64,000 nt of DNA from Aurantiacibacter sediminis (GTDB taxonomy: Bacteria; Pseudomonadota; Alphaproteobacteria; Sphingomonadales; Sphingomonadaceae): positions 558,001 through 622,000 of the forward strand of contig NZ_JAEANY010000002.1 in the NCBI RefSeq assembly GCF_016019885.1, read 5' to 3'. Under the pieces are notes generated by a model. It was not told the DNA's origin. It was given only the letters and a program-made list of their open reading frames with translations, and did not search any database. Made by a program: the position numbers and the translations under genes. The number at the start of each line of letters is the position of its first letter. The first letter of the stretch is position 1. This document shows, in pieces, positions 19,301 to 22,758 of the stretch.

Positions 19301-20677
19301 ATGGCACTCGATATCCTCGTAGTCGATGACGAGCGGGATATTCGCGACCTTGTGGCCGGCGTCTTGAGTGACGAAGGCTATGAGTGCCGCACGGCAGGCG
19401 ATAGCGAGAGCGCGATTGCCATGGTCGATGAACGGCGACCCAGCTTGGTGCTGCTCGACGTGTGGCTGCACGGATCCCCGCGAGACGGGCTGGAAGTGCT
19501 CGACGATATCAAGACGCGTGAGCCCGGTCTGCCGGTCATCATTTTTTCCGGCCATGGTAATGTCGACACCGCAGTGTCGGCGGTGAGCCGCGGGGCGATG
19601 GACTTCATCGAGAAACCTTTTGAGGCAGAAAAGCTTCTCCACCTCGTGGCGCGCGCGACCGAAACCGAGCGCTTGCGGCGGGAAAATGAACGCCTTCGCG
19701 AAGGCATGACGTCACCCGATGAATTCACCGGCAACTCATCCGTCATCAACCAGGTGCGCGCTACGCTGAAGCGCGTAGCCAATACCGGCAGCCGGGTGTT
19801 GGTGAGCGGACCTGCTGGGGCGGGCAAGGAAGTCGCCGCGCGGCTGCTCCATGCCTGGAGCCCGCGTGCTGACAAGGCCTTTGTTTCGGTCAATTCGGCG
19901 CGCATTACACCCGATCGCTTTGAGCACGAATTGTTCGGCGAAGAGGCGGACGGCAAGCTTATCCGGCCCGGCCTGCTGGAATTGGCTGATGGCGGCACCC
20001 TATATCTCGACGAAGTGGCGGACATGCCGGAAAGCACACAAGCGCGCATCCTGCGCGTTCTGACAGACCAGAGCTTTGTTCGCGTGGGGGGCAATCGACA
20101 GGTTGGCGTGGACGTCCGCGTAGTATCTTCCACCGCCAAAGACCTTCTGACGGAAATCGAGGAAAAGCGCTTCCGTGAAGACCTGTTTTATCGCTTAAAC
20201 GTCGTTCCGATCGAAATACCGCCTCTATCCGAACGGCGCGACGACATCCCGGCGCTCGCAGAGCATTTTTTCACCCGTTACGCCCGCGAGCAAGGACTGA
20301 CTCCGCCCACTATCGCGCCGGAGGCGATGGCATCGCTGCAAGCTTATGATTGGCCTGGAAACGTCCGCCAGTTCCGCAATGTCATCGAGCGAACTGTGAT
20401 CCTGGCTCCGCGAGAAGAATTCGCGACGATCACTCCTGACATGATGCCGGAAGAAATCACTGGCGGCTCTTCCGACAGCGGCAGCGGCATGACAAACCTT
20501 ATGGGTGTGCCGCTGCGTGAAGCGCGCGAAAGCTTCGAGCGGGAATATCTGCGCATTCAAATCCGCCGCTTTTCGGGCAATATCTCGAAGACAGCCGGTT
20601 TCATCGGCATGGAGCGATCGGCGCTGCACAGAAAGCTGAAATTGCTTGGGATGAACGATCGCAACAACGGCGACTGA
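19301..20677 (+). CDS. ntrX: Response regulator NtrX, lacking the GAFTGA loop
   Basis: Response regulator of 458 residues with receiver domain (Asp53 in LVLLDVWLHG), AAA+ domain with Walker A GPAGAGKE (about 170-177), Walker B LYLDEVADM and a C-terminal Fis-type HTH (GNISKTAGFIGMERSALHRKL). Where NtrC has EKGAFTGA, this protein reads ELFGEEADGKLIRPGLLE, so the sigma-54 contact loop is missing. Other alphaproteobacterial NtrX proteins share this loss as far as I recall. It probably regulates without RpoN. It is co-transcribed with ntrY (16-base gap, GGGAG upstream of ATG). Confidence 0.95.
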   Translation: MALDILVVDDERDIRDLVAGVLSDEGYECRTAGDSESAIAMVDERRPSLVLLDVWLHGSPRDGLEVLDDIKTREPGLPVIIFSGHGNVDTAVSAVSRGAMDFIEKPFEAEKLLHLVARATETERLRRENERLREGMTSPDEFTGNSSVINQVRATLKRVANTGSRVLVSGPAGAGKEVAARLLHAWSPRADKAFVSVNSARITPDRFEHELFGEEADGKLIRPGLLELADGGTLYLDEVADMPESTQARILRVLTDQSFVRVGGNRQVGVDVRVVSSTAKDLLTEIEEKRFREDLFYRLNVVPIEIPPLSERRDDIPALAEHFFTRYAREQGLTPPTIAPEAMASLQAYDWPGNVRQFRNVIERTVILAPREEFATITPDMMPEEITGGSSDSGSGMTNLMGVPLREARESFEREYLRIQIRRFSGNISKTAGFIGMERSALHRKLKLLGMNDRNNGD

Positions 20678-20851
20678 TTGACCGTTCAAACAGATCTTGC
20701 GCAAGCGACGATCTGAACCCACATATCTGTCTCGAGATTTACGCATTTTTGTGCGATCTATTGCACTTGTGTGACAAGCGGCGTCGCAGATTGCGATGCC
20801 AGAATGCGATTCGGCGAAGATCGGATCGCCAAAAAGAATGGAGTCAGATCA

Positions 20852-21418
20852 ATGGCCAAAGGCACGCTTACTCCCCGGCCTCGTCGGGAACCCGAGAGCG
20901 AAAAAGCAACATCTGCGCCTGCGAAGGCGGGAAATCTGCAGGACCTGTTTCTGAACCATTTGCGGCGTGAAAAAATGCCTGTCACCATGTTCCTGGTGAA
21001 GGGTGTCAAGCTGCAGGGCATCGTGACGTGGTTCGATAATTTCTCGATCCTGTTGCGACGTGATGGGCAGTCGCAGCTTGTCTACAAGCATGCCATTTCC
21101 ACGATCATGCCGAGCAATCCGGTCGATGCGGACAGTTTCGACACGGGCTTCGACGGAAACCGCAAGCAGCGCCTCCTGCAGGACATTTTCCTCAGCCGCG
21201 TCCGCGATGCCGCCGTGCAGGTTACCATGTTCCTTGTGAACGGCGTCATGCTGCAGGGCCGCATCGCCGCATACGATCTTTTCTGCATGTTGTTGGAACG
21301 TGAAGGCTACGTCCAGCTTGCCTATAAACATGCTGTGTCGACCATCCAGCCCGCCACGCAGGTGGATTTGACCGAGGACGGGTTTGGCGATGACGATGAC
21401 GACGATAGCGAAGACTGA
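20852..21418 (+). CDS. hfq: Double-domain Hfq RNA chaperone
   Basis: Sm-like RNA chaperone of 188 residues with two Hfq domains in one chain, about twice the usual length. Domain 1 (about 28-92) has [22 protein letters not shown] and YKHAISTI; domain 2 (about 107-172) has [22 protein letters not shown] and YKHAVSTI. The proximal-face YKH is kept in both, but the basic rim (RRE-K) and the distal-face Lys of KLQG survive only in domain 1. A very acidic tail follows (DDDDDDSED). Three chains could make a pseudo-hexamer. The start MAKGTL at 20852 matches other Hfq N-termini; hflX follows as in the usual hfq-hflX order. Confidence 0.95.
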
Positions 21419-21486: not shown

Positions 21487-22758
21487 GTGTGCCCGCAAAT
21501 TCGCGGCCAGCGCAGCGATGAGGACCCGGAGGCGCGTCTTGAAGAGGCCACTGGCCTCGCGCTTGCGATCGGGATTGTCGTGGCAGAGGCCTATATCCTC
21601 AATGTTCGCGATATCCGGCCCAATACCCTTTTCGGTGAGGGGCAGGTGCAGCGGATTGCCACCGATTGCACGCTGCATGATGCGGAGCTGGTCATCATTG
21701 ACGGCGCACTATCGCCGATCCAGCAGCGCAATCTTGAGGAAAAGATCGGCCGTAAGGTTATCGATCGGACTGGGCTGATCCTTGAGATTTTCGGCGAGCG
21801 TGCTGCGACGGCCGAGGGCCGTTTGCAGGTTGAACTGGCGCATCTCGACTATCAGGCGAGCCGCCTTGTGCGCAGCTGGACCCACCTTGAGCGGCAACGC
21901 GGTGGCTTCGGATTCCTGGGTGGTCCGGGTGAAACGCAGATCGAGGCTGACCGCCGCATGATCCGCGATCGCATGGCGAAACTGCGCCGAGAGCTGGAGC
22001 AGGTCCGCAAAACCCGCGAATTGCATCGCAAGCGTAGGGGCAGGGCACCTTGGCCCGTGATCGCCTTGGTCGGCTATACAAATGCCGGAAAATCCACGCT
22101 TTTCAATCGCCTGACCGGTGCTGACGTCATGGCGGAAGATTTGCTCTTTGCTACCCTTGATCCTACTATGCGGGCGATCGGCCTGCCAGGCGTCGAAAAG
22201 GCGATCCTGTCAGACACGGTGGGATTTATTTCCGATCTCCCGACCCAACTGGTGGCAGCGTTCCGGGCAACGCTGGAAGAAGTGACCGCAGCGGACATCG
22301 TTCTGCACGTGCGCGATATCGCCAATCCTGACAGCGCGCAGCAGAAGCGACAGGTGCTTTCCGTCCTTCATGATCTCGGCGTGGTGGACGAGGCAGGGGA
22401 GGGCGTGGACGCCCCGCTTGTGGAAGTCTGGAACAAGTGGGACTTGCTTGACGAGGATGCGAAGTCAGAGCTTGGCGGCCTTGCGCAAAACGATGATGCG
22501 ATCATTCCGATTTCTGCGATGACCGGCAAGGGTTTAAAAGAGCTGCAGCAGCGCCTCGGCGCAGTCCTCACAGAAGGCGCGCGCGTCTATAGTTTCACTC
22601 TTCCAGCACATGATGGCGCGCGGATCGCCTGGCTGCACGCACATGGCGAAGTGCTGAGTGAAGAGGAGGTTGAGGAGGGTGCTCCTTCACCGGCAAGATT
22701 GGTCAAAGTGCGGCTGACCGAAAAAGAACATGGCCGCTTCGAAGCGCTTGCTTCCTAG
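21487..22758 (+). CDS. hflX: GTPase HflX (true start probably further upstream)
   Basis: Ribosome-associated GTPase that can split 70S ribosomes, at least 423 residues. Seen: N-terminal HflX domain (TLFGEGQVQRIA, about 40), glycine-rich GGFGFLGGPGETQIEADRR (about 138-156), then the G domain with GYTNAGKSTLFNRLTGADV, DTVGFISDLP and NKWD. The first canonical start is GTG 21487, but this frame is open back to 21409 and encodes a family-like leader (EGEVTRGARALVVCPQIRG), so GTG cuts the first strand. Upstream in-frame candidates are CTG 21430, with GAGG 9 bases before it, or ATT 21433. Its 3' end overlaps the mazG stop by four bases. Confidence 0.93.
   Translation: MCPQIRGQRSDEDPEARLEEATGLALAIGIVVAEAYILNVRDIRPNTLFGEGQVQRIATDCTLHDAELVIIDGALSPIQQRNLEEKIGRKVIDRTGLILEIFGERAATAEGRLQVELAHLDYQASRLVRSWTHLERQRGGFGFLGGPGETQIEADRRMIRDRMAKLRRELEQVRKTRELHRKRRGRAPWPVIALVGYTNAGKSTLFNRLTGADVMAEDLLFATLDPTMRAIGLPGVEKAILSDTVGFISDLPTQLVAAFRATLEEVTAADIVLHVRDIANPDSAQQKRQVLSVLHDLGVVDEAGEGVDAPLVEVWNKWDLLDEDAKSELGGLAQNDDAIIPISAMTGKGLKELQQRLGAVLTEGARVYSFTLPAHDGARIAWLHAHGEVLSEEEVEEGAPSPARLVKVRLTEKEHGRFEALAS

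Follow-up and report, generated by a model that had tools for sequence, protein, structure and literature searches.

Conserved inequality between the two halves of a sphingomonad double Hfq

The window, the whole stretch of 64,000 nucleotides of Aurantiacibacter sediminis DNA that was analysed, carries an open reading frame at 20852-21418 that is an ordinary member of the known sphingomonad double Hfq family. Double Hfq itself is not new, and it is the conserved division between its halves that is worth testing. In all 92 double Hfqs compared outside one eroded genus (g12), positions 28 and 31 are two lysines in the first domain and asparagine and methionine in the second; judged from these sequences, the K28/M31 pattern is not chance. 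The first-pass annotation had described the halves of the window protein as unequal, and this asymmetry proved to be conserved family-wide.

The gene, its parts and its neighbours are located as follows, with position numbers of E. coli Hfq taken from PDB alignments and fractions of 92 referring to the double Hfqs outside g12:

20852..21418, plus strand: hfq, encoding the double Hfq of 188 amino acids (protein P0001), with GGAG at 20840-20843
20852..20935, plus strand: N-terminal extension, 28 residues ahead of domain 1, low-confidence (disordered) in the AlphaFold2 model
20936..21124, plus strand: Hfq (Sm) domain 1, residues 29-91, 108.1 bits to PF17209, with a predicted fold
20963..20974, plus strand: domain 1 rim, R38 R39 E40 K41 (positions 16-19); positions 16, 17 and 19 basic in 92/92
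20999..21010, plus strand: domain 1 distal lysines K50 and K53 (positions 28 and 31); KK in 92/92, NK in 32/32 single Hfqs
21125..21175, plus strand: linker, residues 92-108, occupying the place of a single Hfq's acidic tail
21176..21364, plus strand: Hfq (Sm) domain 2, residues 109-171, 82.8 bits to PF17209, with a predicted fold
21203..21214, plus strand: domain 2 rim, R118 D119 A120 A121 (positions 16-19); positions 16, 17 and 19 all basic in 3/92
21239..21250, plus strand: domain 2 distal residues N130 and M133 (positions 28 and 31); NM in 92/92
21365..21415, plus strand: acidic tail at the free C-terminus, residues 172-188, with a net charge of -11 by the count used
19301..20677, plus strand: ntrX, upstream neighbour (NF051870, 730.6 bits against a cut-off of 600)
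21487..22758, plus strand: hflX, downstream neighbour (TIGR03156, 448 bits against a cut-off of 216.75)

The gene and the distribution of double Hfq

The ATG of hfq lies 8 bases downstream of the GGAG in the window sequence, and the start at 20852 is backed by a related N-terminus in two relatives (L014 and L046). The N-terminal extension is 28 residues long in the window versus 7 in many relatives, and the blocks of residues 1-30 have a pLDDT of 64-66 in the AlphaFold2 model. A TLxxRP-like stretch within 20852-20935 is shared with L014 and L046. That two Sm domains are present in one 188-residue chain, as noted earlier, was borne out by two matches to Pfam PF17209 (186.6 bits in total against a cut-off of 27), by a whole-length match to NCBIfam NF010691 (PRK14091.1; 301.9 bits against a cut-off of 270, profile positions 9-176 of 176) and by two predicted Sm folds. 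The AlphaFold2 model, made with a 97-sequence family alignment, has a mean pLDDT of 87.8 and a pTM of 0.77; the Sm fold (an N-terminal helix and five strands) is predicted twice in the chain, with a pLDDT above 90 in both domains, and the linker is modelled with a short helix at 93-96 and a pLDDT of about 72 at residues 101-110. Domain 1 (model residues 27-98) superposed on 6gwk_L with an rmsd of 1.1 over 70 residues and domain 2 (106-173) on 1hk9_E with an rmsd of 0.9 over 67 residues. The residue-by-residue equivalence of the halves, on which the first-pass comparison depended, is supported by their ungapped alignment and by this superposition of the predicted folds on solved Hfq. Single Hfq chains are among the matches listed by Foldseek and VIA-align (50 each), and no double Hfq was found among the 35 solved sequences matched, the longest of which has 114 residues.

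When the host genome (99.98% complete) was searched with PF17209, these two matches were the only ones, and no second hfq was found. The 745-residue kinase that precedes ntrX is probably NtrY, judged by its position; no NCBIfam model above cut-off was found for it among the 25 matches listed.

When the order was scanned with NF010691, 390 of 396 genomes gave a match and 265 of the 396 were above the cut-off. In families f2-f8 of the order, every genome either scored at the level of a single Hfq or was unmatched, and none was listed better than about 1e-44. A scan of the class matched 319 of 385 genomes, and the five that passed the cut-off (5/385) all belong to the host's family (f1), in agreement with the earlier description of double Hfq as a sphingomonad type. 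The fusion looks confined to this family, with the proviso that the cut-off would miss a second domain that has diverged strongly. Genus g12 has low NF010691 scores, yet two domains were found in each of its 27 genomes searched. The named relatives include members of Aurantiacibacter, Croceibacterium, Novosphingobium, Sphingobium and Sphingomonas, and the best named match, among the best 80 of 587, is that of Aurantiacibacter luteus (78% over 188 residues). At loci longer than 2,500 bases, hflX adjoins hfq in 46/46 doubles outside g12, in 18/18 within g12, in 31/32 singles and in 78/80 named loci. One locus (L037, genome G339) encodes a single Hfq whose frame extends into a 155-residue tail with a net charge of +9, without an hflX match; it is likely to reflect a frameshift, an assembly error or a rearrangement. 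In G001, a family f2 genome that is about 2% contaminated, a second, short Hfq-like match was seen at C82:5478-5630 (88 bits, 51-aa frame), which may be either a foreign contig or a second copy.

Seven genera of the host's family (13 genomes) have a single-domain Hfq only. An origin of these proteins by loss of domain 2 was considered and rejected, as 13 of the 13 sampled have N28 and K31, and K28 is present in the first domain of 119/119 doubles. Because they carry N28 and K31, not the K28 of the double type, the single Hfqs of the family look older than the fusion.

For residue counts, we compared 151 proteins, namely 119 double Hfqs (92 outside g12, from 46 genera, and 27 in g12) and 32 single Hfqs. 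The set is non-random: 30 proteins were the top scorers of the NF010691 order scan, another 30 came from 45 genomes chosen for odd scores or genus, another 30 were chosen to fill genera and other families, and 60 were chosen from listed coordinates for genus coverage. One entry (L002) was left out of the count as a duplicate of the window's own (L001). A domain tree of 140 rows and 63 columns was mostly unresolved; it placed the non-g12 second domains on one side of a branch with support 0 and required two changes for the first domains. The tree neither proves nor refutes a single duplication.

RNA-binding surfaces of the two halves

On the distal face, the order's single Hfqs read NK at positions 28 and 31 and the doubles KK and NM; therefore a distal lysine was gained in domain 1 and lost in domain 2. 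The window's domain 1 reads VKGVKLQG at this stretch, and K28 occurs in 0/32 single Hfqs. The distal lysine had been said to be missing from domain 2, and M31 is indeed fixed there in 92/92 outside g12, with no second domain of this set retaining Lys31. Within g12, M31 was found in 19/27. The named loci, an overlapping set, gave K28 in 80/80 first domains and M31 in 80/80 second domains, the latter count being partly built in, as the set comprises the best 80 of 587 loci and NGVML was part of one search seed. The one-sided picture of the distal asymmetry needs correction: the loss of Lys31 from domain 2 stands, but domain 1 has also gained K28.

The remaining contacts are shared. The proximal U-site residues (Q8, F42, Y55, K56 and H57) are present in both halves of the window protein; outside g12, Q8, Y55, K56 and H57 are the same in both halves in 92/92, and F42 is found in 92/92 first and 91/92 second domains. 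The proximal YKH motif was thus correctly assigned to both halves, Y55, K56 and H57 being kept in all 92. Likewise, the distal base-reading positions 25, 29, 30, 32, 33, 52 and 61 are identical in both halves in 92/92 outside g12. Weaker distal binding at alternate positions had been predicted; since the base-reading residues are intact in both halves, such a drop is no more than presumed. Distal base recognition rests on residues that both halves retain here, and K31 of E. coli Hfq touches RNA via its backbone amide (PMC6422490). The E. coli K31A mutant is mild in reporter assays, while its RIL-seq chimeras are down almost 4-fold (PMC12262471). By analogy, affinity may be little altered by the change at 28 and 31. 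We infer that this change bears on the phosphate path, or on the placing of RNA near the rim, and not on A-R-N specificity, which is expected to be unchanged because the base-recognition residues are present in both halves.

The rim differs more gradually. Positions 16, 17 and 19 are all basic in 92/92 first domains and 32/32 singles and in 3/92 second domains, where the number of basic residues at the three positions is 0, 1, 2 and 3 in 15, 48, 26 and 3 of the 92. In the second domains, position 16 is basic in 70/92 (R 65, K 5), position 17 in 34/92 (K 21, R 13) and position 19 in 5/92 (R 4, K 1), and position 14 is R or K in 33/92. The window's domain 2 keeps R118, the equivalent of R16, and has an extra R116, but its positions 17 and 19 are occupied by D119 and A121. 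The net charge over positions 14 and 16-19 of the window protein is +2 in domain 1 and +1 in domain 2, or +4 and +1 when positions 47-48 are added. The seven residues preceding the domain 2 helix hold at least two Lys/Arg in 87/92 (two or three in 86/92) versus one in 32/32 singles. The rim had been described as basic in domain 1 only. This holds for position 19, where the basic residue is gone from domain 2 in nearly all of the 92, and frequently for position 17, but not for position 16, where the arginine is kept in 65/92. Because R16 is so often kept and Lys/Arg stand ahead of the helix, the domain 2 rim is to be regarded as weakened, not lost. The number of basic rim residues governs annealing activity in other Hfqs (PMC6561178), and in E. 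coli the R16A mutation nearly abolishes RIL-seq chimeras (PMC12262471). As a separate observation, the Lys/Arg cluster at the linker end (window 21125-21175 and homologues) may replace the lost rim residues of domain 2.

Further positions separate the halves. At position 47, 92/92 first domains have R and 75/92 second domains E, position 37 is T in 92/92 and A in 73/92, position 38 is W in 92/92 first domains with A in 81/92 and S in 9/92 second domains, and position 41 is N in 92/92 and L in 87/92, respectively. Position 63 is Q in 92/92 second domains and M in 89/92 first domains and 32/32 singles. By the counting rule used, the linker measures 19-23 residues in 92/92 outside g12, and its median net charge is 0. 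Past domain 2, the free tail carries a negative net charge in 92/92 outside g12 (-2 to -15, median -6); it is short and acidic in the window protein as well (-11). For the tails of single Hfqs the median net charge is -4, L037 (+9) being the one outlier.

Pooled over 187 within-genus pairs, which are non-independent, dN/dS was 0.024 for domain 1 and 0.040 for domain 2, indicating at the sequence level that both halves are under purifying selection. Domain 2 was also considered as a pseudo-domain, and this was rejected in view of its conserved core, its dN/dS of about 0.04 and its predicted fold with a pLDDT above 90.

Genus g12 appears to be a lineage where double Hfq changes anew, as seen in ten of its proteins (L098-L107). 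By the start rule used, these 10 of 27 have shrunk to 140-144 residues; their tails are 1-5 residues long, and the helix of their domain 2 is clipped. Their domain 1 has K31R in 10/10 and H57Q in 5/10. In domain 2 of the genus, K56 and H57 are kept in 27/27. One shrunken protein (L105) is still predicted to form two Sm domains (pLDDT 91.0, pTM 0.86), and the shrunken hfq adjoins hflX and ntrX in 6/6 checked. The three basic residues of the domain 1 rim are present in 17/17 g12 proteins with a tail versus 3/10 without.

Ring arrangement, tails and competing explanations

The pTM values of 0.77 for the window protein and 0.86 for L105 suggest that the two halves have a set relative placing in the predicted models. 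The three-chain ring suggested in the first-pass annotation is plausible, and we lean, with some reserve, towards an alternating ring of this kind in which the linker takes the place of the domain 1 tail and the domain 2 tail gates the domain 1 rim. The stoichiometry of the ring and the docking of the tail are what we infer here. In it, three chains would make up the six domains of one closed ring, first and second halves taking turns. All six positions would contribute fully to the U-binding pore of the proximal face and to the base-reading pockets of the distal face, with the distal lysines and the basic rim used for annealing gathered on the three first domains. In such a ring the domain 1 tail would face domain 2 and the domain 2 tail domain 1; the tail of domain 1 would serve the rim of domain 2 and vice versa, because each half neighbours only the other half, in whichever direction the chain is laid out.

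The docking step is modelled on Caulobacter Hfq, where the neighbouring protomer's basic rim (R18, K19) receives the acidic tail, and Glu75 of the tail bonds Arg49 and Ser39 of that neighbour (PMC6561178). With an alignment offset of 2, R18, K19, Arg49 and Ser39 correspond to positions 16, 17, 47 and 37 here. For the double Hfq this would mean that the linker derives from the acidic tail of domain 1 and that domain 2, changed at positions 17, 19, 37 and 47, is without a dock. The free acidic tail of domain 2 would gate the rim of domain 1, whose dock stays whole. With one tail and one dock per chain, the ring would therefore have three gated annealing sites, not six. The lost tail matches the lost dock, and the kept tail the kept dock; this match is the chief ground on which we propose that three chains form the ring and that three of its rims are gated. 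That tail and rim went together in g12 fits the gating model as far as these sequences go, although it concerns one genus and may be one event. Against the model, R16 is retained in 65/92 and Lys/Arg precede the domain 2 helix, so that the charge may have moved and not gone, and the domain 2 rim varies by lineage, as it would under relaxed constraint. The possibly minor role of the 28/31 change in affinity also counts against it.

This variation could equally be expected if domain 2 were a spare copy under relaxed constraint, with six Sm units needed for closure but only three full RNA surfaces, and with no new gating; domain 2 would then drift at any site on which folding, the interface or the U-pore does not depend. 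Rim positions 16-21 are among the most variable of domain 2 (entropy 1.75-2.62 bits at 16, 17 and 19), domain 2 shows the greater nonsynonymous distance in 129/187 pairs (9 ties), and in g12 domain 2 and, to a lesser degree, domain 1 have eroded. However, a spare copy would not account for changes that are fixed in domain 2 (M31 and Q63 in 92/92, L41 in 87/92, E47 in 75/92), nor for the matching gain of K28 in domain 1 of 119/119 doubles, and the dN/dS of domain 2 is still about 0.04. We consider this explanation unlikely. A further explanation is pure economy of assembly: the fusion would do no more than make the ring close faster or hold more firmly, and the unequal surfaces would be a by-product that chance fixed in the ancestor. 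The presence of K28 and M31 in all sampled outside g12 points to one ancestor, and the counts alone fit a single chance fixation; but both residues have stayed fixed across 46 genera while within-genus dS is about 1, and dock residues were lost on precisely the half whose neighbour lost its tail, which leaves a chance by-product highly improbable.

The consistent difference between the halves would also be permitted by two homomeric rings, in which six chains would assemble one hexamer from their first domains and another from their second domains, with the linkers holding the two together and each ring offering a different RNA surface. The linker is partly flexible, with a pLDDT of about 72 at residues 101-110. 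On the other hand, its length of 19-23 residues in 92/92 is tighter than a ring-to-ring tether needs, and the single-chain pTM values of 0.77 and 0.86 are those of a set domain pair. Neither point is decisive, and we give the two-ring arrangement very little credence.

Taken further, the alternating three-chain ring would make the sphingomonad Hfq a three-fold and not a six-fold machine: half of the rim-tail pairs would now be covalent joints, three gated sites would lie on the first domains with K28 and K31 beside them, and the second domains would provide the U-pore and distal base reading only. We put this forward tentatively, as a conceivable view that goes a step beyond what we favour. 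If true, it would reveal the number of rims that the pairing of sRNA and mRNA needs, and how rim and distal face have to lie relative to each other for it.

Relation to known Hfq proteins

An early survey of Hfq distribution by Sun and others in 2002 reportedly noted a double Hfq in Novosphingobium. The Hfq of Zymomonas mobilis (ZMO0347) was described in 2010 as having two Sm-like domains, in a paper that names six other Sphingomonadales with two such domains and already raises the question of a three-chain ring (PMC2877685). The window protein shares the two Sm-like domains with ZMO0347, but the unequal RNA surfaces, the change at 28/31, and the tail and its dock are not treated in the accessible part of that paper (PMC2877685). 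In the accessible text of the further Zymomonas literature searched, nothing was found on how the domains differ or how the ring is composed. For the unequal surfaces, the 28/31 change and the match of tail and dock, no paper was found in the literature searched, with most subscription journals outside it, which is weak evidence of novelty. Within this group, Hfq acting with sRNAs has been reported for Sphingopyxis granuli in a review (PMC6563040).

An ordinary Hfq mutation strikes all six subunits, and fused unequal halves separate the surfaces. The double Hfq therefore allows one to ask whether three rims are enough, whether the rim and the distal lysines have to be on the same subunit, and whether the tail acts on the rim of a neighbour.

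Compared with the NF010691 family of double Hfqs, the window protein is alike save for its N-terminal extension of 28 residues, which some relatives share. The closest solved sequence to domain 1 is Caulobacter crescentus Hfq (PDB 6gwk, 107.7 bits), which has the same rim residues as domain 1 and a short acidic tail (PMC6561178). It differs from the double Hfq in being a single domain, with six equal subunits and N28 and K31 in each. The order's 32 single Hfqs resemble the double in the Sm core, in the proximal and distal residues and in the hflX neighbour (31/32), but they have no fusion, N28 and K31 in 32/32 and three basic rim residues in 32/32. The order thus holds single, double and eroded double Hfq, so that the steps between them can be compared in living lineages.
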